Shown one piece after another: positions 1 through 14,408 of a stretch of DNA of 14,408 nucleotides. The notes under the pieces are model-generated. The model made no database searches. It worked only from the letters and a program-made list of their open reading frames with translations, and was not told the origin of the DNA. The translations under genes and the position numbers were made by a program. This stretch comes from an uncultured Phycisphaerales bacterium. Lineage in GTDB: Bacteria > Planctomycetota > Phycisphaerae > Sedimentisphaerales > Anaerobacaceae. The stretch's first letter is position 1. The number at the start of each line of letters is the position of its first letter. The stretch spans positions 1 through 14,408 of the forward strand of contig CALEZT010000254.1 of the NCBI GenBank assembly GCA_937927975.1. The letters are read 5' to 3'.

Positions 1-41
1 ACAAGCACGATACAGCCGCCGAGCAGGCTCGCCTTCTTCAT
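1..41 (-). CDS. 5' end of an unidentified gene with a signal-peptide-like start (partial)
   Basis: Only the first 13 codons are in the window, reading MKKASLLGGCIVL, and the frame stays open to the edge. Two lysines followed by a hydrophobic run look like the start of a Sec signal peptide. The Cys at position 10 sits in a lipobox-like LGGC, but it is very close to the N-terminus, so a lipoprotein is uncertain. The start is well supported: GAGGAG lies 6 bases upstream of the ATG. The ATG also overlaps the TGA stop of the preceding gene by four bases (ATGA), a typical sign of translational coupling in an operon. The function cannot be told. The context suggests another exported enzyme of the same polysaccharide-degradation cluster. 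Confidence 0.72.
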   Translation of the reverse strand, partial: MKKASLLGGCIVL

Positions 42-3000
42 GGTGCTCTCCTCAATCCTTCCCATTGAACCACCCAGCTTCCGTCATCCGGGAAGCCAGG
101 GGCGTGTTTGTCCGGGGCTCCGTCCCAGCCCGCGGCCATCATGGCGACCGCGTACAGCAGCCCGCCATTGCCCGGCAGGTAGGGACACGGTCCGCCCAGG
201 TTCACACCGCGTGCGTCATAACGATTCTTGTTGCCTGCTTCCTTGAGCAGGGCTTCCACGGCAATCTCCGGCTCACCCACCCGCGCCGCGGCCATGGCCA
301 TCCACGGGAAATCCCAACCCCAGCAGCGGGTCCAGTCCCAGGCCTGCCAGACCTTGAGCACAGTCCCACGGGCCGTGGAGGGCTCCACGCCTTCCACAGA
401 CGGCAGCATCCCGAGCGCACCGACAGGATCGGGATGCTCCCATGCGCGTTTGCTGTAGGTGTCCTTCCACTCGGCAGAATGAACGAATACGCCATCCACT
501 ACCGGCAACGGGGCAAGACGCCTCCGGACAGAGTCCCAGGAGGATTCCTGGGCAAGGCCCAACCGTTCGCGCCAGCGCTGCGCCTGGTCGAGACCCCAGC
601 GCCAGTAGGCCAGGTCGAACACCGTGTCGCACGTGATTCCCTGCTCACTTGGTGGCATGATCGGCTGCAGATGGCAGATCCCCCGGTCATCACGCGTCGG
701 GAAATCTGCCATGTAGTCAGCGGTCGCAAAGACAATCTCCTGCCATTTCTCGAGTGTTGCCCGAGTCGGCCGCAACCGATATTCCAGTTCGGCAAAGAAG
801 ATCGGATGCGGCTGTTGCCAGTGCAGGACGAAGCTCCCGTCCCACGGGGCTGTCCGGCCTTCCGGGCCAACCTGCTTGCCCCACTTGGCGCCCTTGTAGT
901 CAAACTGACCGGCGAGTTGTCGAGCCACGGGCAGGAACTGCCGATAGCAGTCCAGCGCACGCTCGGCCATGGGCCAGCGATCCCACAATCCGTAGTGTGC
1001 CAGGTGCCACCAGATCATCTCCATGTGAAACTGCCCGCTCCAGAAGTCGATGCCCATGAGCCCGATTTCCGCCGAGGGCCAGCTCCCGGCGGACTGTGCG
1101 GCCATCTGGTACCGGGAGAGCACGATCCGCCGCTCCAGTTCCTGCCATCGTGGATCTTTGCTTTGCGACAGGTCGATGGCGCCGCCCGTAGTCCAGAAGT
1201 CCCGCCAATGTGCGGCCGCAACTTGCTGTGTCTGGGCAACGGTCGGGCCCGTGTTGTGCCTCTCCGCAGCGAATGAACAAATGAACTCCAGTCGGCCGCT
1301 CGTATCGGCCGACAGAACGAAGCTGTGCCTCTTATCGGAGGACAAAGAATCGGGCCACGGGGCAAAGGAACATCCCTCGGACCACGCAACACCGGCATGA
1401 TATGTCGCGGCATCGGCTTTCCGTTGGATGTCGGCACGACGCTCATTCCGGCGTAGCGAGAATTCACTGGTGTGCGCGTCGGGCCGGTTCCAGTCGCCCA
1501 CCCACGCGGACCGGCTGTCGACGCTCGGATAGGGGAAGTCGAGCACCACCACCAGTTGACCATCCCGCAGCAGCGGCGATTCGGCACAAACGGCGACCAG
1601 ATCCAAGTTCGGATGGACGCAGGTCTCAATAGAGATGGGGTGCCCATCCACTTCGAAATGACTGGTGTGTAGCCCGGACCACAGATCGTATCTTCTGACG
1701 ATACGCTGCACGTCTTCTGCCTTCAGTTCGCCTCCCTCAGTGCGCATCAGGCGCACTCGTCCCAGATTGATGGGATGAGGATTTCGGAACATCCAGCCGT
1801 CGAGTTCTCTGCGTTCGGCCGCGATGTGCATGGGACCTGTGATCCGCCCCTTCTCCACGGTTCCCGTCGCCGGCACATCCGCAGCAGTGCATCCGGGGGG
1901 CAGCGGCGCCGAATGCCACGCCCAGTGCGACAATGTGCTGCCCCCGAATGTCTGCAGACCCGTCCCATCCGCATTGAAACAGAACTCACCGTTGCCGAGG
2001 GGAATCTGTCCGCGCAGGTCGTTCCACTCGATGTTGTGTCGAGTGACGAGAGCATGACGGTCGATTCGCGGATCGGCTGCAGCAATCGCACCGGATACGA
2101 GGAGATTGTCGAATCGGGCCGGATGCAGGCCGCATCCCACGCCGGCAAGTCCGCAGGTGTAGGTCCGGTCGATCACATCTGCTACGGTCTGGTCATCAAT
2201 GACTCCCACAATGTGTGCGCCGGTGCAGCGAAGTTCGAGCTTGTGCCACCCGGTGGCGGGGCCGGCGACCCGGCCTGCCGCCAGACTGGAAGAGCCGGTC
2301 AGCAATGCCCAACGACCATCGGCGCACAATCGAAGCGTATATCCCGGCGGATGAGGGGCTTTGAAATGATCGAACGTGGAACCGGGATGGAACCGTGCAA
2401 CAACCGCCACATAAGCCATGGCATTTGGATCTGTCGCGGGGCCGGGCTGGGCTTCCAGGGCCACCTCGACGCTGACGGCAACATCTCCCCAGCCCGGATC
2501 ACCCAGTACGGTGCTGGCATATCGCATGGCAGCCCAGTCAATCCCGGGCTGGTGAATTTGCTGACGGAGACACTGACCGCCATCCTCGCGCCGAGCGACC
2601 TCAAAGGCGCCCCCGCAGTCGCTCAGGTAGCGAGGGGTCGCACCGACCCGATACGAATCGAAGTCCTCACGATACGGCGAGGGGAATGGCCTTGCTGGCG
2701 GGCTGGTCGCATGGCCCTTTCGCTGCCCGGTCGTGGTCGTAAGCGAGTAGATGGCGTTCGGATCCACACGCACGGCAAACACGCCTTCAACCGGCAAGAG
2801 GTTTGGGTCCTGGACGAACTGCTCAGACGCGCTCGATCTCCACAGATGGAGCCTGTTGAACTTGAAGCCATCCGCCGCCTGCAGGGCCAGGTGCTGTGGC
2901 CCGTTGGCACCGTATGTTTCGATGATGACCGACACGTCCTTTCCGTCCGGCGAAGCAAGAGCCACCACGCTGCCTCCCTTGGGCAGCCTTCTACACGCGT

Positions 3001-4168
3001 CCTCCAGGTAGTGCCAGCCGGGTTGGGCGAACTGCGTCGTGTGCGCGACGGCCCAGAGTTCCGGCTGCACCTCGAACGCACCGGACCAAGGCGTGTTGGC
3101 CGTGATCACGCCCGACTGTGGGGCCGTGAAGCTGTCATGATAGGCCGTCACCAGACTCCAGAATTCCGTCTTGGTCAGGCGGTTTTCGATGAAGTTGCGG
3201 TTGATCTTCTGTGCCCGACGACCCCGGATCGGCCGCATTGTCTCCCAGGTCCACTCCCCGTCCTCCGACGACCAGAGCCGCTTGCCGGCAGCCTGGAAAT
3301 CCAGCGAGGACTTCGGTGTCTGCCCATGCGCGTAATGGACACCGAAGACCTCGATGGCCGCCGCCAGTTCGGGGTCCTTTGCCGCGGCCTCCGTGATGCT
3401 CCACATTCGCTGCGGGGGGCCGTTAAGGTCCGCCGCGACGATGCGAACCCGCTGGAGTCCATGCTCATCGAGCGTTCGTCGCAGGAGTTTGATGTAGCCG
3501 GCATCGAACTCCTGCTCATTCAGTATCCCGACGTAATCGAATTCGAGGCCATGAAACCGCTTCATGCCCAGAAGGTAGGACGCAATGTAATCGGCCCCGT
3601 CCTGGGAGAAGAACCTGCCGTTGCCGATCCAGCCGGGGGCGCCCCAGGCAAGACAGTCGAGAATGATCTGGGGATTGCGCTTGCGGGCTTCTTGGGCCAG
3701 CCACCATTCGTAACCGCGTTCGAAATACTCCCGTTTGGGGTGGAGGAATTCTTCCCGGGTGCGGGCATGGCTCGGCTCGGTGCCATCCGTCGAGTTGATG
3801 TCGCCCCCGATCTCGACTTTCAGGTGCTGGAATGCCGCTCCATAGGCGGGCTTGAACAGATAATCGAGTATCTGGCTGCGGATCGGCTCTGGGTAGTCGA
3901 TCAGCAGCCGAGAGGATGCCCCGGCGCTGACCGCTCCGATGCCCTCGAAGACCGCCCCGGCGTCGCCCGGATGGAGTCGGAGTATTAGATCGTTTCCCTC
4001 CGCCGGGTTGCCGGACAATGGCCCGGTGGGATCGGCTTGCAGCGCGGCACACAGGCATAGAACAACGCCGATCGTCACGCAACGCCGTCCAGGACTTCGC
4101 GACACTTGGATTCGGTGACAGCCAGTCGGTGGATACCGCACGGTTGCTTCGGAGTCTGTTTGCGGCAT
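38..4168 (-). CDS. GH59 galactocerebrosidase-like module fused to an (alpha/alpha)6-barrel glycosidase
   Basis: About 1376 residues from the chosen ATG. A Sec signal peptide (hydrophobic stretch about residues 31-44, predicted cut after LQA) follows an unusually long n-region. Residues 73-330 match the GH59 beta-galactosidase barrel: FEGIGAVSAG, RSQILDYLFKP, LKVEIGGD, DGTEPSH and RGYEWWLAQEA are classic galactocerebrosidase motifs. The acid/base Glu is about E218 (ILNEQ) and the nucleophile about E302 (WSSEDG); both are present. A beta-sandwich follows, then a lectin-like domain (about 498-693, ending FDNLLVSG) as in GALC. Residues 703-1376 are a second enzyme: IPLGNGEF, GLQTFGG and WAWH, then a helical barrel with FWSGQFHMEMIWWH, whose E1050 aligns in style with the GH65/GH95-type catalytic Glu. 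That part resembles unclassified GH65-like proteins. The start is uncertain: ATG 4210 has a better-spaced AAGGGG, and GTG 4105 would give a compact signal peptide. Confidence 0.9.
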   Translation of the reverse strand: MPQTDSEATVRYPPTGCHRIQVSRSPGRRCVTIGVVLCLCAALQADPTGPLSGNPAEGNDLILRLHPGDAGAVFEGIGAVSAGASSRLLIDYPEPIRSQILDYLFKPAYGAAFQHLKVEIGGDINSTDGTEPSHARTREEFLHPKREYFERGYEWWLAQEARKRNPQIILDCLAWGAPGWIGNGRFFSQDGADYIASYLLGMKRFHGLEFDYVGILNEQEFDAGYIKLLRRTLDEHGLQRVRIVAADLNGPPQRMWSITEAAAKDPELAAAIEVFGVHYAHGQTPKSSLDFQAAGKRLWSSEDGEWTWETMRPIRGRRAQKINRNFIENRLTKTEFWSLVTAYHDSFTAPQSGVITANTPWSGAFEVQPELWAVAHTTQFAQPGWHYLEDACRRLPKGGSVVALASPDGKDVSVIIETYGANGPQHLALQAADGFKFNRLHLWRSSASEQFVQDPNLLPVEGVFAVRVDPNAIYSLTTTTGQRKGHATSPPARPFPSPYREDFDSYRVGATPRYLSDCGGAFEVARREDGGQCLRQQIHQPGIDWAAMRYASTVLGDPGWGDVAVSVEVALEAQPGPATDPNAMAYVAVVARFHPGSTFDHFKAPHPPGYTLRLCADGRWALLTGSSSLAAGRVAGPATGWHKLELRCTGAHIVGVIDDQTVADVIDRTYTCGLAGVGCGLHPARFDNLLVSGAIAAADPRIDRHALVTRHNIEWNDLRGQIPLGNGEFCFNADGTGLQTFGGSTLSHWAWHSAPLPPGCTAADVPATGTVEKGRITGPMHIAAERRELDGWMFRNPHPINLGRVRLMRTEGGELKAEDVQRIVRRYDLWSGLHTSHFEVDGHPISIETCVHPNLDLVAVCAESPLLRDGQLVVVLDFPYPSVDSRSAWVGDWNRPDAHTSEFSLRRNERRADIQRKADAATYHAGVAWSEGCSFAPWPDSLSSDKRHSFVLSADTSGRLEFICSFAAERHNTGPTVAQTQQVAAAHWRDFWTTGGAIDLSQSKDPRWQELERRIVLSRYQMAAQSAGSWPSAEIGLMGIDFWSGQFHMEMIWWHLAHYGLWDRWPMAERALDCYRQFLPVARQLAGQFDYKGAKWGKQVGPEGRTAPWDGSFVLHWQQPHPIFFAELEYRLRPTRATLEKWQEIVFATADYMADFPTRDDRGICHLQPIMPPSEQGITCDTVFDLAYWRWGLDQAQRWRERLGLAQESSWDSVRRRLAPLPVVDGVFVHSAEWKDTYSKRAWEHPDPVGALGMLPSVEGVEPSTARGTVLKVWQAWDWTRCWGWDFPWMAMAAARVGEPEIAVEALLKEAGNKNRYDARGVNLGGPCPYLPGNGGLLYAVAMMAAGWDGAPDKHAPGFPDDGSWVVQWEGLRRAP

Positions 4169-4432
4169 GGTCCTTGCTTGCTCCTCAATACAGCGGTCTG
4201 CTATTCTCATACGGCCAAGCCCCTTGAACAAGCCCCCTATCTTGCGGCGAATGCGATCTTCCACGGCACCGTACGACTGGCCGGGCTATCCAGCCTGACG
4301 CGAAGGTTCGTTCCATCTGGATCTGCATCGCATCCATTCTGATCTCCCTGTCTTGTGCACGGACACCCGCAATGAAGCATTCTCTATGGATACCCCATGT
4401 GGTTTGGGCCTCATTGTAACGACCTGCGTGCA
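4169..4432. other. 264-base intergenic gap, the largest in the cluster
   Basis: This gap separates the GH127/SGNH gene from the GH59 fusion gene. All other junctions in the window are 41 bases or less. I see no clear sigma-70 promoter pair, no strong hairpin followed by a T-run and no RNA gene. A minus-strand reading frame of 83 codons crosses it (4185-4436) but has no recognisable motif. Part of the gap may be the true N-terminus of the GH59 protein if translation starts at 4210. It remains the best candidate site for an internal promoter or mRNA processing. Confidence 0.6.
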
Positions 4433-7400
4433 TCATGGGAACAAAGCCATCAGGCTGTCCGCAAAGATTGCCATGCCACGCGCATCGGGATGGTTGGCGG
4501 CATTGACCATCAGAGTCGAAAAGGGGATGCCTTGACGCCAGAGCCGCCCATATCGTTCCGCGGCATCCGCCAAGGCTACACCATGAGCGGCGGTAAAACG
4601 ACGCACCATGCCGACATAGGCGCGGGGGTCTTTGTCAATGTCCCGTTCGCGCGGCAGGGCCATGAAGCTGTTGTAATGGGGTGTCAGGATGATCCATTCC
4701 GCACCGATGCGATGGAACTCGGCCAAGACTCTGCAATAGCCAGCCTCGATGCGGGCCGGATCAACAGGACCGTCATTGACGAACTCCGAAACAACCAGAT
4801 CAGGACGCACACCCAGTACGGTTTCGGAGAAATTGCGGATATGCCCAGATGGCGCCTCCAGAAAGTCCAGCGAATTGTGGGCGCCCCAGCCGACGGTCAC
4901 CAATCTGATCTTCGCCTTGGGAAAACGCCCCTGCAACCGACGGACAAACTGCGCCTGCCATTGGTCCTCGCCGAGATAACCCTCCGTGACGCTGTCCCCC
5001 CAAGCCACCAAGGTCAACGGTTGCCCTTTGCGCAGCTTGGCCAGCGTCTTTGGCAGTAGCCGCTCAGCCGGTGTGGGCGAAGCCTGAGAGGCTTCAGGGA
5101 AAGCCGTAACGAGAATGGGAAACAGGTTGTCCGCCGTCAGACCGGTAAGATGGGCCGGCAACCAGAGATTCGCCAGTCGTCTTTCGCCAGGCAGCAACTC
5201 CGGCGGATGAGGTGTCGCGAGATGGGGATGACCCTGGCGCAGCACCAAGTGGTTCTGCACCGTGAGTGCAAGAGAATCGATCCGACGGGTCATGAAACGA
5301 TAGCTGACCAGTACGGATTGATCCGAACCGATGCTTCCCTCCCGCAACCGGCCAAGGCCCCCCCATTCCAGATCGACTTTGAAATCCTTGTCCGACGCGA
5401 ATTCTCTGGTCTGGTCCGCACTGGTCACCCGCACGCTGCCCGGCACAAGCGCCAACCGCGAGGTGTATAGCCCGTCCTCCAGGCAGCGGAGTTGTCGGCG
5501 CGCCCAACCAGGTTGATCCGGTTTCCATTCCTCCAGGGATGCGTAAGGTTCGTTGACGACCGCAACCGGCGCCGGCGGTTCGATGTGAACGATGCGACAG
5601 ATCTCTTGAGATGCCCCGTCTACGCCTGCAACCCTGGCTTCGACCGCCCAATCACCGACAAGCTGCAGTTCCACTGGCGAAGAGACCTTACCAGGCTGGA
5701 GGTCGTGTCCCACCTCAGACGCGAATTTGGGGATGCGGGGACATTCCTGCAAATCAGGACACATCAAACGCCATGTCTCAGTTGGATACATCTGACGCAG
5801 AAACAGGGGCTGTGGCAACCATACTCGGAACAGATTCTCACTGCTCCAGCCATTTCCCGCTGACGCATAGTCGCACAACGTCAAATGGCTCTTGTAATGA
5901 CCAAAATAGTGGGTGGGACGCACCTCAAAGGGGGCATCGAAAGCCATCCAGATTTCCTCAGGTTTGGACGGACTCGGTCTCAAGGCGACAAAGCCGTCCT
6001 CGTCTGTCACCAACCGCACGGCAAGATTCTCCGGCTTGGCCAGGCGGTCGTCGAGTGCGAGCACAATGGGACCTCGCATGATCGCCAGTTGTGGCGCGCC
6101 GCTGGGGGCCGGCACGGCACGCCCCCGCAGGTCCAGCGTGAGAATCACCTTGTCGCCAGGAGACCACTCGCGAGTCACCTCTGCATAACTGCCTGGTTTG
6201 CAGACAATGGGCTGACCATTGATGGTCAATGACGTACGCTGGCTCCAGCCCGGAATCCGGAGACTCAAAGTGAACCTCGTTTTCACCGCAGGTGAAACGG
6301 TGAGCACGATTTCGTTGCCGACAGGATAATCGGTTTTCTGGATAACTTCGACACCGACGCCGTTCGCCAGCGTCAAGGTGGCACTGCCGGGAGAATAGAG
6401 GTTAACGACCAAACCCTCCTCGCTTTCCATGACGGCCCAGCGCGGGGTCAGAAGCAGGCCACGCGGGCCGTTGGCCACACAGCAACTGAGCTGGACATCG
6501 CTGTGCTGATAGTGACTGGGCACACGCTGACCGGCCAAGGGCGAGAAATAGGCCCACCAGGCACCGTCGGGAGTCATCGCACTGGTCAAAGCATTGTAGA
6601 GGGACACCTCCAATTCATCGGCCCAGAGTGGATCGCCGGTGAGACGCAGCAGTTGATAACACAGTTTCATCCATGTGACGGTGACGCAGGTTTCCGTAGG
6701 CTGCTCGAGACTCTCTGTCTGGACCCGCGTGCCCTCGCACCAGAGTTCCTGGTTGGAGCCCGAGCCGTGGATCATCAGTTCGTTGCGGCGGATGCTCTGG
6801 GCAAAGGCGACAACTGCGTCGAGATATCGGCGCTGCCCCGTGATACGGTACATTTCGCAGACACCTTCAAAACAGGACATCATCTCGTAAGCCTTGCGGG
6901 CACCGATTTGCGTCGGCGGGGTCCCGCCAAGTCCCTTTTCGAGCAACTGGGAACCGTTCGCAAAGAACTTGTTGGGCTTGCTCCATTTGTTCACAATATC
7001 GTTGGCCAGTTCAAGATAGCGACCATCACCCGTACGCTGATAGAGCAACGCGATCGGTTCGAGTATCGAACTGGATGGTAGTCCTTTGAGTACGTCAATG
7101 CCGTTCTCCGTCAGATTGAACCGACCCGGCGGCGCTTCTTTCAACAGATGATCAGCGAGCCTCCTGGCGGCCGTCAGTGCCTGCCTATCGCCGGTCAGGT
7201 CATAATGGGCCCGCAATCCCAGCAAAGTGTACTTACGGCCCCAGACATCCCAGATGCCCAGATGGCACTCCGGCTTGTAGGTGCCGATGTAGCCGTCCGG
7301 GGTCTGTGTCGCCACCAGTGCCTCAATGCCGCGATCCAGCACTTTCCGGTGGGCGTCGGTCGGCTGATAGGCATAGCCCAACGCCGCAGAGGTAAACCAC

Positions 7401-7672
7401 TTACCCCAGTATTCACACCGCCAATGGCCACTGTTCTCCTCGGTACGGTCACGAAAGGGCTTGATGATCCGCGCCAGATCCTGAACCATGACGTGATGGT
7501 GGAGCGATACCTCCAGTTTCCGTCCCAGCCAACCGCTCACCTGAACCGTGCCCGGCGGCGCGGGAGCCAAGACATCTTGGACCGTCTGGGTCGCAGTGGC
7601 AACACAACAGAGACCGAGGACCAATACCATCGCGAATTGTACGTTGATCCGTTTCCTATCATCTCGATTCAT
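4433..7672 (-). CDS. GH127-like (DUF1680) beta-L-arabinofuranosidase fused to SGNH/GDSL esterase
   Basis: 1079 residues from the ATG. A Sec signal (hydrophobic stretch about residues 12-28) is followed by a GH127/DUF1680 helical barrel and beta-sandwich to about residue 650. Known family members are zinc-dependent retaining beta-L-arabinofuranosidases with a cysteine nucleophile. The expected ligands are visible as E327/C329 (ETC) and the pair C397-C398 (SCCVANG), and E313 is the likely acid/base. After a beta-rich linker (about 712-865) the last 200 residues form an SGNH hydrolase: GDS at S894, the block II Gly in VGWG, N966 in VNDG, and H1061 in ANHPDARG. It would deacylate sugars. The Asp of the usual DxxH is not at its normal place. 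An ATG start is chosen because GAGGA lies 5 bases upstream. GTG 7684, overlapping the upstream stop as GTGA with AGGA 7 bases before it, is equally possible (1083 residues). Confidence 0.9.
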   Translation of the reverse strand: MNRDDRKRINVQFAMVLVLGLCCVATATQTVQDVLAPAPPGTVQVSGWLGRKLEVSLHHHVMVQDLARIIKPFRDRTEENSGHWRCEYWGKWFTSAALGYAYQPTDAHRKVLDRGIEALVATQTPDGYIGTYKPECHLGIWDVWGRKYTLLGLRAHYDLTGDRQALTAARRLADHLLKEAPPGRFNLTENGIDVLKGLPSSSILEPIALLYQRTGDGRYLELANDIVNKWSKPNKFFANGSQLLEKGLGGTPPTQIGARKAYEMMSCFEGVCEMYRITGQRRYLDAVVAFAQSIRRNELMIHGSGSNQELWCEGTRVQTESLEQPTETCVTVTWMKLCYQLLRLTGDPLWADELEVSLYNALTSAMTPDGAWWAYFSPLAGQRVPSHYQHSDVQLSCCVANGPRGLLLTPRWAVMESEEGLVVNLYSPGSATLTLANGVGVEVIQKTDYPVGNEIVLTVSPAVKTRFTLSLRIPGWSQRTSLTINGQPIVCKPGSYAEVTREWSPGDKVILTLDLRGRAVPAPSGAPQLAIMRGPIVLALDDRLAKPENLAVRLVTDEDGFVALRPSPSKPEEIWMAFDAPFEVRPTHYFGHYKSHLTLCDYASAGNGWSSENLFRVWLPQPLFLRQMYPTETWRLMCPDLQECPRIPKFASEVGHDLQPGKVSSPVELQLVGDWAVEARVAGVDGASQEICRIVHIEPPAPVAVVNEPYASLEEWKPDQPGWARRQLRCLEDGLYTSRLALVPGSVRVTSADQTREFASDKDFKVDLEWGGLGRLREGSIGSDQSVLVSYRFMTRRIDSLALTVQNHLVLRQGHPHLATPHPPELLPGERRLANLWLPAHLTGLTADNLFPILVTAFPEASQASPTPAERLLPKTLAKLRKGQPLTLVAWGDSVTEGYLGEDQWQAQFVRRLQGRFPKAKIRLVTVGWGAHNSLDFLEAPSGHIRNFSETVLGVRPDLVVSEFVNDGPVDPARIEAGYCRVLAEFHRIGAEWIILTPHYNSFMALPRERDIDKDPRAYVGMVRRFTAAHGVALADAAERYGRLWRQGIPFSTLMVNAANHPDARGMAIFADSLMALFP

Positions 7673-7677
7673 GGAAA

Positions 7678-7684
7678 TCCTCAC
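7678..7684 (-). promoter_or_regulatory. Ribosome binding site containing the upstream stop codon
   Basis: Read on the minus strand, GTGAGGATTTCCATG joins the sulfatase to the GH127/SGNH gene. The TGA stop is part of the GAGGA Shine-Dalgarno sequence, 5 bases before ATG 7672. The same bases offer a GTG start that overlaps the stop. Either reading implies translational coupling. Confidence 0.6.
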
Positions 7685-9225
7685 ACCCTTTTCCTGTTCA
7701 CCAGTTCGATCGGCAGGCCCGGGAAGCCTTCGGCCTGGACATCCTGCGGCCAGGAACCGTCAGGCATTTGATAGAGCGGGTCCAACTGTTTCGCATCCGG
7801 AGCGCCGCTATAGCCAAATCGACGACGCCACTGATCCGTCAACTGCTCCATCTTCTGCCGCAACGATCGCGCCTTCGGCTGGTCATACAGGTTGTTCAAC
7901 TGATAGGGGTCGTCACGACGGTCATAGAGAACGCGCACCGGGTCGGTTCTGAAGGTCACTTTGCCATCTTCGCCATGCGCGAAATGGCGGAGTTCCCCAC
8001 AGCCATAGGTAACGTCCCGAGTGTACACACCGTGCCATGAGGGATTGTAGAAAAACAGCGGCTGGGATGCCACTGCGTCATCGTCTCCAGACCGGATCGC
8101 ATGCGCCAGGTTCTGTCCGTGCAGTCCGGCAGGGACCGGCAATCCCATCAAGCCCAGCAGAGTCGGCATCATGTCCATGGCGCCCAGCAGCAGGTCACTC
8201 GTTCGCCTCCCCGGTAATCCGCCCGGCCAGCGCAGCACAAAGGGAATCCGTGTCGAGGTATCCTCGGGATGATCCTTGGCAACGTGGTAGCCATAGGAGG
8301 CCAGGTTGTCACCATGGTCCGAGGTATATACCACCAGCGTATTGCCCTCGAGCCCCTTCTCACGCAGTATGTCCAGCAACCAGCCAAATGCGCGGTCCAC
8401 ACCACTGCACATCGCATAGTAACCATGGTAGGCTTCCCGCAAATGGGGATGTTCCCGGGCACTGGGGCGTAACCGAATCTTCTGCGGATCGTACAGTGCC
8501 ATCAGTTCAGGGAGCGTATCGTACTTGTAGATCAGTGAATCCCGGTGCAAACCCCAGTCATGTGGAGGATGCCAAGAGACAAACAGGGCAAATGGCTCAT
8601 CCGCACGGGCCTGATCGAGAAACGACAGCGCCTGACGGGTCTGACCGTACACCTCCCATTCATCGAAGAAGACTTTCTCACCGGCCTCGTTCCAATAGTA
8701 GCATTTGCCGGGCCTGAAATCCACATGGCAGTTGTTGGAAGCAAAGAGGTCGTCGAAACCGAAGCGGGCCGCACCCGCTGGGATGGGCCGATTCCGGTCG
8801 CCGCCCAGCAAGTGCCACTTGCCCACGTATCCGGTGCGATACCCGGCCTCTTGGAGGACCTGCCCGAAGGTCTTTCCGTTATTGATCAGCAGTGGGCGGT
8901 CGTTGGTATACGCACCAGTGTAGAGCGGATGCCGGCCGGTCAGCAACATACCGCGGAAGGGGGTGCACACCGGACTACTCGAGACACAGTGGTCGAACCG
9001 GACGCCCTCGCCGGCGAAACGGTCCAGGTTGGGCGTAAGAATCTGTTCGTTCCCATAGCAACCCAACATGTCGCGTGACTGCTGATCCGAAAAGACCAAC
9101 AGCAGATTGGGACGTTTCCGGGGGATCGCATTACTGGGTCCGGCCGAACGGCAGTCGCCAACGAGCGGACTACTTGCCATGGCGGCTGTTGCGCCCAGGA
9201 ATTCCCTACGTGTCATTCGCGTCAT
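7681..9225 (-). CDS. Tat-exported formylglycine-dependent sulfatase (S1 family)
   Basis: 514 residues from ATG 9225. The N-terminus has a twin-arginine signal (TRREFLGATAA, R6-R7), so export is folded and Tat-dependent. The core is an arylsulfatase-type alkaline-phosphatase fold: metal ligand D47 in FSDQQ, the modification motif C87-T-P-F-R91 followed by GMLLTG, GKWH at 135-138, WHPPH around 218-222, SDHGD at 302-306 and K317 in VAKDH. Cys87 would be converted to formylglycine by a maturase (anSME or FGE), not seen here. The motif has Phe where the textbook signature has Ser, which is known in some polysaccharide sulfatase subfamilies. The substrate is a sulfate ester, presumably on the sugar chain handled by the neighbouring glycosidases. 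The start is set by a perfect AGGAGGT 6 bases upstream; the in-frame extension to 9423 only shadows the upstream gene. Confidence 0.93.
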   Translation of the reverse strand: MTRMTRREFLGATAAMASSPLVGDCRSAGPSNAIPRKRPNLLLVFSDQQSRDMLGCYGNEQILTPNLDRFAGEGVRFDHCVSSSPVCTPFRGMLLTGRHPLYTGAYTNDRPLLINNGKTFGQVLQEAGYRTGYVGKWHLLGGDRNRPIPAGAARFGFDDLFASNNCHVDFRPGKCYYWNEAGEKVFFDEWEVYGQTRQALSFLDQARADEPFALFVSWHPPHDWGLHRDSLIYKYDTLPELMALYDPQKIRLRPSAREHPHLREAYHGYYAMCSGVDRAFGWLLDILREKGLEGNTLVVYTSDHGDNLASYGYHVAKDHPEDTSTRIPFVLRWPGGLPGRRTSDLLLGAMDMMPTLLGLMGLPVPAGLHGQNLAHAIRSGDDDAVASQPLFFYNPSWHGVYTRDVTYGCGELRHFAHGEDGKVTFRTDPVRVLYDRRDDPYQLNNLYDQPKARSLRQKMEQLTDQWRRRFGYSGAPDAKQLDPLYQMPDGSWPQDVQAEGFPGLPIELVNRKRV

Positions 9226-9231
9226 CGTTGT

Positions 9232-9239
9232 ACCTCCTA
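9232..9239 (-). promoter_or_regulatory. Strong Shine-Dalgarno overlapping a stop codon
   Basis: On the minus strand the sequence ATAGGAGGTACAACGATG links two genes. The TAG stop of the GH106-like gene overlaps the full AGGAGGT of the sulfatase, with a 6-base spacer to ATG 9225. This fixes the sulfatase start and suggests that terminating ribosomes re-initiate. Confidence 0.8.
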
Positions 9240-12011
9240 TGTGTCTGGATGACTCTTCTCCAAGGGCGCAACCAGGAACATGGACTTCACCGGTTCGAGC
9301 ACGAGCCGGAATCTGGTTATCGTCTGTCCGTGTTCGGTCAGATAGTCGCATGCCCGTGTTGCCATGGCGCCGGTGTGTGGATCCCACTGCTGTAACGCCC
9401 GCCAACCGCGCAGCCGGACCCAAGTGTCCACCCGCTCATCGCTTGAGTTGGCGAAATAGTACAGGTGAGTTCCGTCTTTGACTTTGTGCAGATAGGACAA
9501 CATGCCGCCACCGGCATCAATGCGGGGCGAGTCCTCGAAGCTGACATCGGCGACTGGCGTCGCATCATCCAAGATGACCTGCAAGGTCGCAATAGTGGGT
9601 CTACGCGCGAAATACGCTCTTCCACCTTGGGGGTGCCGATTGATCTGGAACGACTGAAGGCTCTCGTCTATGTCGACACAGGGGATGTCCTTGATCACCC
9701 ACCATTGGCCATGGACCTTCTTGTGCGGACGCAAACGGTTCTTATCAGGCCAGAATTGCCACATGTTACTATTGGCGCCATCCTCGGAGGCGCGGAACAC
9801 CAGACCGGTGGGGGCTTCGGCCGTGCTGAGATTCGCCTCAATGACATAGTCCGTCCACTCGGACCCGCCACGGGCTTGCATCGCACTGTTGTCAGTAACC
9901 ACCAACCAGCCATCCCGAATGGCGGCGTTGTTGGTATTGATCCACTGATCAAGCCCGCTGCTGAAGTCGTCTGCGAACAGAACCTGGGCATCCCCCGTGG
10001 TGACCTTGATGTCCGAGAGGCATGCCACTTCGGCGCCAATCACACGGAATCCGATGGTCCCCTTGCCGAAACTGTCCTCCTCGGTCACATCCACCAGCAC
10101 GCCCCTGACATAGGTCTTGATGATTGAGCCGGAAATCTCGATGCGAACACGATACGCGGCGTCAGGCGTCTCGGTGACCATGCGCTGCGGTGTGATCCCA
10201 AATATCGCCTCAATGGTAGATTGCACCTCGGCATCCTTTCCAAACTCTGCCGACTTGAATGGCAGTTGTGTCGTGGCCACCACGCGGCCCCCGCTCTCAT
10301 AGAATCGCTGAATCTTCCGCAGGTTGCTCAACGAAATCACCTCCCCCCCGGGAATGATGATGACCGGGTATTGCTCCCAGTTGTCTGCGTTGTTCAGACG
10401 CAGTCTCGCCTCTTCGACACTGCATCGCTCATCAAGGACCTCAGGATGTAGAAAAGTGAAGTCCCGCCGAACACTCCCGGTGAGTCGGTCGCTGATGCCC
10501 AGGTAATCCGCCCACAACGGCGCATCCTTTCCCCAATTGGGCTGTTGCAGACCCGGCACATCGAACCGATAGGCCGCCTGCAGCGCCACGACCGGGTACA
10601 GGATGCCAACGTCGGCCACATGGCGACCGCCCTGCAGCATGAGGCTGCACCGCCCTACGAACCGGTTGTAGGCGGGCAGTTCCGCACCCAAACGTCGATT
10701 GCGATGCGAAATCTCCGGCGGGATGTGCATCGCGTTCGGGTCGTACCACATGCCGTGGGGGATCATCAGGTTGGCACCCCGGACATATAACTCCATGGCC
10801 GACCGATAGAGCATTGCGGTATCCACGCTGGCATCAGGGTAGTTGCCGTAGATCTCCACCGCGGTGACCGGGCGGTCATACGTAAAGGCGGCGGAGATGG
10901 GCAGTTTGAAGCCGGCACGGCCGTGACCATAATAGTGGATCGAATCGAGCAGAGGAATGTCACAGTGCCTGTAGAATTTGATATTGTCGCCGCTGACTTC
11001 CACCGGTTGCGGCTCGTAATTCCCCGCCGGGTGACCCGAAACCTGGATCCCATGCGCGCCGCACCACTCGTGAATCGTTCGCACGAAGCCTTCCGACATC
11101 AGTTCGGCTCGCAGACCAAAGAAGGCGACCCGCGCAGCCTCCGTGTCCTGCCCAATGTCATACCAGAGGGCCGGATAGAGCAGCGCCGGATCCTCGCCGT
11201 ACTTTTCCTTGAATTTCCGGTTGAAGCTTGTCGTCCAGGTGCGACCTCCGGAGGTATAGACCATGGCGGCGTCATCAAAGAACGACTGGACGATGGTCCT
11301 GCCAAAATAGCCACCAAAACGTTTTGCGAATTCATCGTAGGTGAGGGACATCCAACGCCTTACGGCCTCGGCATCCAGGTAATCGACGAGCTGCCCTTCC
11401 GTCACACAGACGAAGAACATCACCTTCCAGGTGCCGCCCGGCGCCTCCCAGCGCAGTGTGTCATCCTGGATGAATCCGGCAAGGTCAATCCGCCGCTGCG
11501 TTTCGGTCTCCATCGCCACGGCAGCCATAAGCGTCCCCTCTGGCACTGGCCGTACCATCGTCAGCGGTCCGACAATCTCAGCTTCCACTTTACGAAGATT
11601 CTTGAGCATGCAATCGGGATACTGTTCGGCCAGACGCCCACCGGCCGTACCCGTGGGAAAGTTGATGTCGTCGTAGAAGACCACCTTCAGTCCGAGTTGT
11701 TCGGCCGCCTCCAACATCAGGCGGTACCGGTCGAAGTACGCTTCCGTAAGATATTCCGGGCGTGCCGAGCGTAGGGTCAAAGGTGCAAAGCCGCCAAAAC
11801 CGCACTTATCGCGCATGGCCTGGATCTGCTCTCTCAAGACATCTGGCTCCAGTGGCGCATTGAGCCAGTAGAGCGGCCGTGAACGATACTGCATCGGTGG
11901 ATTCTCGAACCGGGCGGCCATATCTTCGGGCATCCCGGCGACACGTAGCGGGTGTGCGAGAACCGATAGCAGGACCGAAAGAGTGAACCGTGAAATCGCC
12001 TTCACGTTCAT
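9237..12011 (-). CDS. GH106-like glycoside hydrolase (putative alpha-L-rhamnosidase) with inserted lectin-like domain
   Basis: 924 residues with a Sec signal peptide (hydrophobic about 8-25). The N-terminal barrel resembles GH106: PLYWLNAPLEPDVLREQI and FGGFAPLTL near 47-80, VVFYDDINFPTG near 110-121, SFFDDAAM at 243-250 followed by WTTSFNRKFKEKYG, and VTAVEIYGNYP at 382-392, where E386 is a candidate catalytic acid. MIPHGMWYD at 416-424 and IIIPGGE at 551-557 also fit. Residues about 616-790 are a concanavalin/laminin-G-like insert whose halves appear in swapped order. A C-terminal segment (HKVKDGTHLYYFANSS, LRGW, WDPHTGAM) is typical of the family. GH106 enzymes remove alpha-L-rhamnose, but this substrate is inferred. 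The start has AAAGG 9 bases upstream, with the stop of the preceding gene only 16 bases away. Confidence 0.82.
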   Translation of the reverse strand: MNVKAISRFTLSVLLSVLAHPLRVAGMPEDMAARFENPPMQYRSRPLYWLNAPLEPDVLREQIQAMRDKCGFGGFAPLTLRSARPEYLTEAYFDRYRLMLEAAEQLGLKVVFYDDINFPTGTAGGRLAEQYPDCMLKNLRKVEAEIVGPLTMVRPVPEGTLMAAVAMETETQRRIDLAGFIQDDTLRWEAPGGTWKVMFFVCVTEGQLVDYLDAEAVRRWMSLTYDEFAKRFGGYFGRTIVQSFFDDAAMVYTSGGRTWTTSFNRKFKEKYGEDPALLYPALWYDIGQDTEAARVAFFGLRAELMSEGFVRTIHEWCGAHGIQVSGHPAGNYEPQPVEVSGDNIKFYRHCDIPLLDSIHYYGHGRAGFKLPISAAFTYDRPVTAVEIYGNYPDASVDTAMLYRSAMELYVRGANLMIPHGMWYDPNAMHIPPEISHRNRRLGAELPAYNRFVGRCSLMLQGGRHVADVGILYPVVALQAAYRFDVPGLQQPNWGKDAPLWADYLGISDRLTGSVRRDFTFLHPEVLDERCSVEEARLRLNNADNWEQYPVIIIPGGEVISLSNLRKIQRFYESGGRVVATTQLPFKSAEFGKDAEVQSTIEAIFGITPQRMVTETPDAAYRVRIEISGSIIKTYVRGVLVDVTEEDSFGKGTIGFRVIGAEVACLSDIKVTTGDAQVLFADDFSSGLDQWINTNNAAIRDGWLVVTDNSAMQARGGSEWTDYVIEANLSTAEAPTGLVFRASEDGANSNMWQFWPDKNRLRPHKKVHGQWWVIKDIPCVDIDESLQSFQINRHPQGGRAYFARRPTIATLQVILDDATPVADVSFEDSPRIDAGGGMLSYLHKVKDGTHLYYFANSSDERVDTWVRLRGWRALQQWDPHTGAMATRACDYLTEHGQTITRFRLVLEPVKSMFLVAPLEKSHPDT

Positions 12012-12027: not shown

Positions 12028-13239
12028 TCAAACCACCACCGGCCACTTGAACGTGGATTTCAGCGGGATGTGTCGCCCGGTGCTCTGTGAAGCACGCGCT
12101 GCCGTTATGATTTCCACGACGTGGAGGGCGTGCTCCGGCGTAAACAACGGCTCCTTGCCGGTGACCAGGCACTCGGCGCACAGCGACGCGCCACATTCCC
12201 AGACGTAGTTGTGTTTGGCGTCGGCGTGGCGCTGGAATGTCGGTTCCTGCGCCGTGCTGAGGTCCACCGCGTGTGGGCCCCAGTCGTAGCCGGCCAGTTT
12301 CATCACGCCATTTCTTCCAGTGATAGTAAGGGTATGATGGTTCTGACCGGTATAGGCATGATCTTCGGGATTGAAGTAATTGAAACCACATTCGATGTGC
12401 GAGAAGACGCTATTGCCGTGGTCCAGCAACACCATGGCGTTGTCCTCTGCGGTGACAGTCACCTCTCCCTTGCCATGGATTTGCCTCGTTGGTATGACAG
12501 TACCCGTCATAGCGGTTACGGAACGAGCGGGTCCGAGCAGGCCGGTGAGGAAAGTGAGGTTATACACGCCCAGGTCGGGAAGACTGCCTCCTCCTTCGGT
12601 GTAAAAGAACTCGGCCCAGTTAGGCCCCAAATGGCCGTAACTGGCGTGCGCACCGGCAAGGCGACCGAGGCTGTCCGCCGCCAGCGTTTTCGCCATGAAC
12701 GCAAACTGAGGGCTTTGTACCACCGTGGGTGCGCCCCAAAGCCGCACGCCCTTTTGACGTGCCCGGGCCAGTAGCTCTTGTCCCGCGGTCAGCGAGTTGG
12801 CTATGGGCTTCTCACTCCATATGTGCTTGCCCGCCTCAATGGCCCGTCGGTTCAGGCGCTCGTGCTCCTGCATGTCGGTCAAATTCACAAGAAGATCAAA
12901 GGACGCCCCTGCCAGCATTTGATCAATGTGCGGGTAATGATGGGGGACCCCGAATTTCTTGGCTTGAGACCGAGCCCGCTCGGGGATGATGTCACAGGTA
13001 CTGGTCAATTCCACGAACGTACAGGCCCGCAGATGAGGAAGATAGCACCGAGACACGCTGCCGCAACCAACCACGCCCACCTTAATCTTTCTCTGCACCG
13101 CGGCAGATTGGGCCGAATACCCCTTGAGCGATCCAGCCACCAGCCCCACTCCATACATTGCACTGGCGTGCAGGAAGATGCGGCGATTGATGGGACGCGG
13201 TTGTTTTACGAAGGAAACCCTGCTGTCACTCATGGTCAT
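12028..13239 (-). CDS. Tat-exported Gfo/Idh/MocA family oxidoreductase
   Basis: 403 residues. The N-terminus has a twin-arginine signal (INRRIFLHASA, R19-R20) with a hydrophobic stretch to about residue 38, so the protein is probably exported with its NAD(P) bound, as known for glucose-fructose oxidoreductase. The Rossmann motif VGVVGCGSVS is at 54-63, and the family's EKP motif is at 143-145 (K144 catalytic in relatives). GGGSLPDLGVYNL at 217-229 gives D222-x-x-x-Y226, the arrangement seen in GFOR-like members. The C-terminal beta-sheet half follows. It likely oxidises or transfers hydride on a sugar released or bound by the neighbouring glycosidases; the exact substrate cannot be told. A GH109-type NAD-dependent glycosidase is an alternative. 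Two ATGs are six bases apart; the first has GAGG upstream and the second AAAGG. Confidence 0.92.
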   Translation of the reverse strand: MTMSDSRVSFVKQPRPINRRIFLHASAMYGVGLVAGSLKGYSAQSAAVQRKIKVGVVGCGSVSRCYLPHLRACTFVELTSTCDIIPERARSQAKKFGVPHHYPHIDQMLAGASFDLLVNLTDMQEHERLNRRAIEAGKHIWSEKPIANSLTAGQELLARARQKGVRLWGAPTVVQSPQFAFMAKTLAADSLGRLAGAHASYGHLGPNWAEFFYTEGGGSLPDLGVYNLTFLTGLLGPARSVTAMTGTVIPTRQIHGKGEVTVTAEDNAMVLLDHGNSVFSHIECGFNYFNPEDHAYTGQNHHTLTITGRNGVMKLAGYDWGPHAVDLSTAQEPTFQRHADAKHNYVWECGASLCAECLVTGKEPLFTPEHALHVVEIITAARASQSTGRHIPLKSTFKWPVVV

Positions 13240-13280: not shown

Positions 13281-14408
13281 TTAGGGCGTAAACGCTAAGT
13301 TGCCGTCAAGTCTGTGCACGCGTTCTTTTCCTGTTGAGGCGCCTTCCACAGCCTTCTCAGACCTGTCATAACCGAACAAGGGACCACCCCAGATGTAACG
13401 ATAAGGATTGACCACCCAAGGCAATGGTCGATTAGGATCGTTGCAGGGACAGAGGTTTGCGGGAACCAATGGGTCCTCCAACGCCAGAGGATGAGACGAT
13501 CCCGGTTGGCCTGTCTCTATTTGCATGGTTCTCCCGCCGTAGCGCACGGTGCACGCGTTGCCAAGCCGGGAATATAGAACCCCCTTGGTCAGCCTGCCAT
13601 CGTGCCAAGCCATATCGATCTCAAAACCACCACGGGCGCGCAGGCCCCGCACCGAGCCCGTCGGCCATTCCCTGGGCAACGCCGGGAGCAGATGGATCTC
13701 GCCGGCATGGCTTTGCAGCAGCATCTCGGCAATGCCGGAGACAGCCCCAAAGTTGCCGTCGATCTGAAACGGCGGGTGGCTGTCAAGAAGATTGGGCAGC
13801 GTCGAGCGCGAAAGCAATAGTCTGAGGTGTCTGTAGGCCTCGGCGCCGTCTTCGAAGCGGGCAAAGAAGTTGATGACCCAGGCGCGACTCCAGCCCGTTC
13901 CGCCCCCGCCGTGGGCGATTCGATGTTCGAGGCTCCGGCGTGCCGCGGCCGCCAGTTTCGGTGTACCGCGCATCGTGATCTGTGAACCCGGATGGAGACC
14001 GAAAAGATGTGACATGTGGCGGTGACCGGGCTCGGGTTCGTCATAGTCCTCGACCCATTCCTGGAGTCGCCCATCCCTGGAACTGATTTGCAGCGGGGCA
14101 AGGCGCGCCAGCGCATCAGTCAATGCACGGCGAAACTCCGCCTCGAAGGTCCCTCGGCCACCGTCCAACACATCGATGGCCTGCACGCAGTGTGTCAGCA
14201 GATCGTGCACGATCATCAAGTCCATCGTGGCGGCGTAGGTGAACATGGAATGGCTGCCGTCCGACTTGCGGAAGGTATTCTCGGGAGAATGCGAAGGACA
14301 CGTAACCAGCTTGCCCGCTACCGGCGTGCCGACGGGCGCTTCCACCAAAAAATGAGACTGTATCAGCGTTACATGGATATTCTCATGACAATGGGTAGTC
14401 CAAGCCGA
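13281..14408 (-). CDS. GH95-type alpha-L-fucosidase/alpha-L-galactosidase, 3' part (partial)
   Basis: The frame is open to the window edge (375 residues visible), and the gene's beginning is outside or lost. From about 14345 downward the protein matches the C-terminal half of the GH95 (alpha/alpha)6 barrel: GKLVTCPSHSPENTF, LQEWVEDYDEPEPGHRHMSHLFGLHPG, GGGGTGWSRAWVINFFARF, LPNLLDSHPPFQIDGNFG and GIAEMLLQSHAGEIHLLPALP. The Glu in SPEN and the Asp in QIDGNFG are the likely equivalents of the catalytic acid and base-assisting Asp. GH95 inverts terminal alpha-1,2-L-fucose or alpha-L-galactose linkages. The last 55 residues (from PCNDPNRPL) do not look like the usual GH95 end. The first 20 codons in the window also do not resemble GH95, and the TTG at 14348 has no ribosome binding site, so I do not treat it as the start. 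Confidence 0.88.
   Translation of the reverse strand, partial: SAWTTHCHENIHVTLIQSHFLVEAPVGTPVAGKLVTCPSHSPENTFRKSDGSHSMFTYAATMDLMIVHDLLTHCVQAIDVLDGGRGTFEAEFRRALTDALARLAPLQISSRDGRLQEWVEDYDEPEPGHRHMSHLFGLHPGSQITMRGTPKLAAAARRSLEHRIAHGGGGTGWSRAWVINFFARFEDGAEAYRHLRLLLSRSTLPNLLDSHPPFQIDGNFGAVSGIAEMLLQSHAGEIHLLPALPREWPTGSVRGLRARGGFEIDMAWHDGRLTKGVLYSRLGNACTVRYGGRTMQIETGQPGSSHPLALEDPLVPANLCPCNDPNRPLPWVVNPYRYIWGGPLFGYDRSEKAVEGASTGKERVHRLDGNLAFTP

Follow-up and report, generated by a model that had tools for sequence, protein, structure and literature searches.

A GH59 enzyme fused to a GH65/GH95-fold module without assigned activity in an uncultured Phycisphaerales bacterium

One gene on the minus strand of the 14,408-nucleotide stretch analysed here (hereafter the window; contig CALEZT010000254.1 of assembly GCA_937927975.1, from an uncultured Phycisphaerales bacterium) encodes a glycoside hydrolase family 59 (GH59) enzyme joined in the same chain to a second, (alpha/alpha)6-barrel module. 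The fusion is apparently real and rare, and its product looks bifunctional. We read it as a secreted two-enzyme protein, in which a retaining exo-beta-galactosidase and an inverting exo-glycosidase would trim an acidic heteropolysaccharide, a reading to which we give about an even chance. It starts from the domains, their conservation, the predicted fold and the existence of a second fused gene, from which export, the two activities, the catalytic base, the substrate and the cooperation of the halves are proposed. The gene and the elements of its N-terminal half are the following:

38..4168, minus strand: fusion gene, counted from the codon of Met33; the longest open frame (38..4264, 1408 aa) begins with a GTG at 4264
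4031..4168, minus strand: export-signal-like N-terminal stretch, residues 33-78 (RRC then VTIGVVLCLCAALQA; read from the translation)
3032..3949, minus strand: GH59 catalytic domain, residues 106-411 (PF02057, E 5.6e-105; GALC 4ccc, E 1.1e-102)
3515..3517, minus strand: Glu250, predicted GH59 acid/base (GALC E182)
3263..3265, minus strand: Glu334, predicted GH59 nucleophile (GALC E258)
2726..2989, minus strand: GH59 middle domain, weak, residues 426-513 (PF17387, 23.3 bits, below the cut-off of 28)
2093..2611, minus strand: GALC-type lectin domain, residues 552-724 (PF21708, E 4.8e-13)

The frame is open throughout its length. After Met33, the translation reads RRC followed by a hydrophobic run with ALQA at its end; such an N-terminus reads as an export signal, and the protein is probably secreted.

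The GH59 catalytic profile PF02057 matched with 351.3 bits and the lectin profile PF21708 with 49.9 bits, both against a cut-off of 27. GALC's family is that of the Krabbe-disease enzyme. Mouse GALC could be aligned over residues 102-724 of the fusion (E 1.1e-102), its E182 and E258 falling on E250 and E334. These matches confirm what a first-pass annotation had described, namely a single frame carrying a GH59 module with both catalytic glutamates, a lectin domain and then a second module. The roles of the catalytic residues and the list of galactose contacts were taken from PMC4445328, which links GALC W291 to galactose specificity. According to our reading of the alignment, the contacts listed there as W135, T93, N181, W291 and the lectin residue W524 correspond to W207, T159, N249, W369 and W577 in the fusion. 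Since GALC contacts including W291 are kept, beta-galactosidase is the best reading of the GH59 half on alignment grounds, which is not proof of galactosylceramidase identity.

The C-terminal half was divided as follows, module numbering starting at residue 735:

41..2062, minus strand: C-terminal module, residues 735-1408 (GH65/GH95-like fold, without assigned activity)
1268..2062, minus strand: N-terminal beta-sandwich, model residues 1-265, end approximate (secondary structure of the model)
128..1165, minus strand: (alpha/alpha)6 barrel, model residues about 300-645 (predicted model)
1019..1021, minus strand: Glu1082 (module E348), candidate catalytic base, invariant in 80/80 sequences
644..646, minus strand: Glu1207 (module E473), facing the general acid of GH65 in alignments
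173..175, minus strand: Pro1364 (module P630), at the site of the GH95 activating Asp

The predicted fold of this module is matched by GH65, GH95 and GH139 structures, in agreement with the GH65-like (alpha/alpha)6 barrel announced by the first-pass annotation. The HMM search that the latter had recommended for the two parts of the protein was run with Pfam and, beside PF02057 and PF21708 in the N-terminal half, retrieved no model at E<=1 for residues 735-1408; NCBIfam likewise gave none at E<=1. In particular, the GH65 central domain PF03632 had no match at E<=1 in the window protein, its matches in relatives (E 0.002-0.04) all lying below the cut-off, and the GH95 model PF22124 had no match at E<=1 in the window protein and is absent from the 10 families listed for the module-family alignment A1 (46 members). 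Searching solved structures with the family profile, the best sequence match had an E-value of 0.038. The absence of an assigned activity, as claimed earlier, thus holds in the libraries searched (Pfam and NCBIfam), and the further claim of a new family is supported as far as absence from Pfam-A and NCBIfam can support it. The family itself is large: of 7997 proteins scored, 3894 reached E<=1e-3. Most of the 120 relatives listed stand alone and measure about 700-800 aa; where a source names any of them, the name is 'hypothetical protein', except for one fused protein, P0055.

A distant kinship of the module with GH95 does emerge from profile-profile comparison. A profile of 80 sequences (the window protein, 45 sequences of A1 and 34 from genomes) was aligned over 589 columns to a profile of 16 GH95 sequences, with an HHalign probability of 94 and an E-value of 8.4e-8; the same GH95 alignment, reversed to serve as a decoy, gave a probability of 0.23. 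Two of the 36 family matches from genomes were left out (L109_0, a poorly aligned fragment, and L089_0, a copy of L088_0), as was a 17th GH95 sequence (L137, probably in a wrong frame), whose removal left the residue picture unchanged.

Within the 80 sequences, E332, E348 and H353 are each kept in 80/80. E473 falls on the P-x-E acid motif of GH65 in two alignments, both weak. Its column holds Glu in 46/46 sequences of A1 and in 52/80 of the wider alignment; Glu is present somewhere between 468 and 478 in 80/80, and we read the lower count as register shifts. The DGNFG motif of GH95 faces YLPGNGG in the module family, so that the position of the activating Asp is a Pro in 79/80. This Asp (D766 in AfcA) activates the Asn base according to PMC12282258. 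As for the Asn pair of GH95 (AfcA N421/N423), it falls in a gap of the alignment; E348 opens a helix (347-359 in the model) close to the segment with this pair. The base Glu616 of the GH65 enzyme FjGH65A found no reliable counterpart in the module (HHalign probability 24 against a GH65 profile built from two sequences). We propose E348 (Glu1082) as the candidate catalytic base, with E332 as the alternative. Having no Pfam match to either family and lacking the GH95 activating Asp, the module was assigned neither to GH95 nor to GH65.

The gene fusion was found a second time. The homologue P0055 (1133 aa; 7 member sequences, 5 contigs) is 93% identical to the window protein over residues 83-1188 and crosses the junction between GH59 and the module without a gap. 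Beyond residue 1106 it departs from the window protein, and its residues 1107-1133 look like what a frameshift or a contig end would produce. P0055 is the sole other GH59-module fusion among the best 120 of 675 matches. The co-occurrence survey proposed by the first-pass annotation was carried out on 79 GH59 loci with flanks of at most 10 kb, and the module was detected in 0/79 at E<=1e-10 and in 0/79 by tblastn at E<=1e-15; these loci are the best of 398 stretches and many end early at contig ends, so rarer pairings are possible. On this count a recurrent partnership between GH59 and the module was rejected, and the earlier idea that the pair forms a recurrent two-step unit does not hold. In 6 of the 20 genomes examined behind GH59 loci, the module is present as a separate gene elsewhere. 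Of 288 genomes from the phylum to which G001 belongs (G001 being the genome of L001, Verrucomicrobia), scanned with three candidates scored per genome, 24 gave a module match at E<=1e-3, four of them only as fragments or weak matches. In 23 of the 25 relatives displayed, 22-39 signal-like residues precede the RHAL stretch which opens the module here (88 and 129 in the other two). Given this clean junction at the module start, two existing genes were probably joined in a single lineage, at the border between two domains.

Fifteen module neighbourhoods were fetched, in 13 of which the module frame was recovered (it was lost to longer opposite-strand frames in L152 and L154). Among 58 neighbouring frames, with 25 of 81 families shown, GH78 was found in 3, GH106 in 2, PF12708 (rhamnogalacturonase/epimerase-type) in 2, and pectate lyase, GH88, RhaT and sulfatase in one each. 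By position, GH78 lies at L149 and L150, GH106 at L150, a pectate lyase at L151, a PL4-type protein at L157, GH32 at L158, and RecQ and BNR at L155. Of 37 module places, drawn from 25 genomes, 6 have GH88 at a distance of 10 kb or less, where chance would give 0.75 (Poisson 1.3e-4). The observed neighbours were counted by eye; the 37 places exclude fragments or weak matches in G027, G227, G229 and G280, two pieces of G001 were merged, and the G221 place contains two stops.

In the window, the six genes read are all on the minus strand and closely spaced. Upstream of the fusion gene were identified:

4433..7684, minus strand: GH127 enzyme with a C-terminal GDSL/SGNH domain (PF07944, PF20736, PF13472)
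7681..9423, minus strand: sulfatase, longest frame (PF00884, E 2.2e-52)
9237..12011, minus strand: GH106-like protein (PF17132, E 5.5e-27)
12028..13239, minus strand: Gfo/Idh/MocA oxidoreductase (PF01408)
13281..14408, minus strand: GH95, cut by the window end (PF22124, E 1.5e-72)

The sulfatase, which displays a CTPFR motif, suggests a sulfated substrate; as a twin-arginine-like RREFLG start lies inside its longest frame, translation probably begins downstream of 9423. Against an aceric acid hydrolase model, the GH127-type protein matched partially, with 138 bits (E 3.3e-40) where the cut-off is 950, and its GDSL/SGNH domain is esterase-like. With 95 bits against PF17132, far below the 400-1000 bits of many other matches, the GH106-like protein may represent a divergent subgroup.

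Assembling these elements, the GH59 half would act as a retaining exo-beta-galactosidase with Glu334 as nucleophile and Glu250 as acid/base. The C-terminal half would be an inverting exo-glycosidase in which Glu1207 protonates the leaving group and an invariant Glu, Glu1082 being the best candidate, activates the water molecule in place of the Asn-Asp pair of GH95 or the Glu of GH65 hydrolases. The substrate would be a branched acidic heteropolysaccharide, for which our best guess is a rhamnogalacturonan-like pectin. The GH59 half would remove a capping galactose, and the second half would take the sugar beneath or a neighbouring branch; two consecutive cuts on one substrate, as the first-pass annotation had imagined, are plausible. 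Taken further, the module may tentatively be seen as a large uncharacterised glycoside hydrolase family of GH65/GH95 fold with a relocated base, an invariant Glu on the barrel doing the work of the Asn-Asp dyad in GH95 and GH139 and of the Glu in GH65. It might also have a pectic substrate specificity which no existing family covers; we think this broader proposal possible rather than likely. If true, such an active-site swap would be a further route to inverting catalysis within one fold.

Several observations weigh against the proposed two-enzyme action on an acidic, pectin-like substrate. In the GH59 half, the loop of GALC R380 is absent and S261 is replaced by E337, so that the sugar contacts, as given in PMC4445328, differ from those of GALC. 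In the module, the profile alignment puts E473 out of register with the GH95 acid by one column, so the acid assignment leans on GH65, and the GH65 profile of two sequences never exceeded an HHalign probability of 24. How E348 lies with respect to the Asn pair of GH95 is ambiguous, the alignment opening a gap of 4 residues at this point, and the 46-sequence A1 profile matched GH95 weakly (probability 6.5, E 0.0056). Regarding the substrate, GH106 is near at least 4 of the 37 module places against 1.55 expected (p 0.07) and GH78 near at least 3 against 1.45 (p 0.18), neither being significantly enriched. Housekeeping genes are neighbours too, glutamine synthetase in 2 of the frames and polyphosphate kinase in 1, beside the RecQ mentioned above. 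The GH88 cases may be one locus common to related species, and carbohydrate genes cluster anyway; related species not being independent, the pectin reading is only a lean. Finally, we rejected the idea that the gene set of the window is kept elsewhere, as it was not found as a set in the 79 GH59 loci or the 15 module loci: tblastn (E<=1e-15) gave four matches to the sulfatase and one to GH127, all distant, and none to the GH106, Gfo/Idh or GH95 proteins.

The module could already belong to a recent or unsearched CAZy family of known activity, in which case only the domain pairing would be new. The size of the family and the GH65, GH95 and GH139 structures matching its fold are compatible with this, the libraries searched being Pfam and NCBIfam; the lack of any model in both of them, the best solved-structure match of E 0.038 and the 'hypothetical protein' names argue against it, and we hold it to be possible though rather unlikely. 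Alternatively, the module could be a dead enzyme serving as a sugar-binding domain which targets the GH59 half. The Pro at the GH95 activating Asp position would fit such a loss, and many listed GH59 proteins do carry a binding-type domain, PF00754. Against this stand the strict conservation of E332, E348 and H353, the Glu present in the acid stretch of 80/80 sequences and the fact that the listed relatives mostly stand alone, which together make this explanation improbable.

A phosphorylase, as most bacterial GH65 enzymes are, would use phosphate in place of water and would need no base. The signal-like leaders of the relatives suggest export, however, where phosphorolysis would be of little use, and we consider this very improbable. 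As to a joining of two genes by an assembly error, one other fused protein was seen among those listed, which would leave some room for it. That protein, P0055, for which 7 member sequences and 5 contigs are listed, nevertheless spans the junction without a gap, and the frame of the window gene is open. We therefore rejected an assembly chimera as hardly credible, and the single real gene claimed by the first-pass annotation is upheld.

Through the fusion, a family of thousands of proteins without assigned activity in Pfam or NCBIfam becomes open to experiment: as the GH59 partner probably acts on galactosides, the substrates to try for the module are narrowed. We find the module family of greater interest than the fusion itself; the GH59 half is of a common bacterial kind. 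The module is also joined to a GHL6-type domain (P0027) and to a GH43-type domain (P0094). PATR repeats (PF12951, autotransporter-type) are present in the module proteins P0161 and P0165 and in neighbours at L156:13934-18100 and L157:10359-15395, hinting at surface display for some module proteins. The PF11875 'DnaJ-like' matches in 8/46 relatives and in a GH78 protein were taken as spurious.

GH59, described earlier as small, is not so outside animals: 5866 proteins were detected at E<=1e-3 among 7996 scored candidates, and a genome scan found the 398 GH59-encoding stretches in a one-genome-per-species prokaryote collection. Bacterial GH59 proteins are thus abundant, and they are joined to several glycosidase types. 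Among the titles listed in our literature searches, none concerns a bacterial GH59 enzyme, the C-terminal module or a GH59 fusion.

Compared with known systems, the N-terminal half resembles GALC (4ccc, 3zr5) in its GH59 domain, both catalytic glutamates, its lectin domain and most galactose contacts. It differs by a glycine loop one residue shorter around G48, a weak middle domain, the added C-terminal module and the bacterial setting. With the GH95 alpha-L-fucosidases and galactosidases (AfcA 2eac; 8zbv, 2rdy, 4ufc, 7kmq), the module shares the two-domain fold and a near full-length profile match, whereas the activating Asp is a Pro and the Asn pair lies in the alignment gap. It is 12% identical to the alpha-1,2-glucosidase FjGH65A (GH65, 7fe3; PMC8626586), and Pfam detects no GH65 domain in it at E<=1. 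In the GH139 2-O-methyl-alpha-L-fucosidases (9hyq), an Asn base aided by another Asp has been proposed (PMC12282258); the module family has an invariant Glu in or near the region of that Asn. Other GH59 fusions associate, in precomputed Pfam assignments, GH5 (P0212), GH2 (P0219), GH29 (P0299) or GH43 (P0318). P0217, once rescanned, combines in one chain GH59 (residues 39-337) and an MGH1-like (alpha/alpha)6-type domain (857-1163), and may have come to this layout independently. In all these fusions Pfam assigns the second domain to other families.
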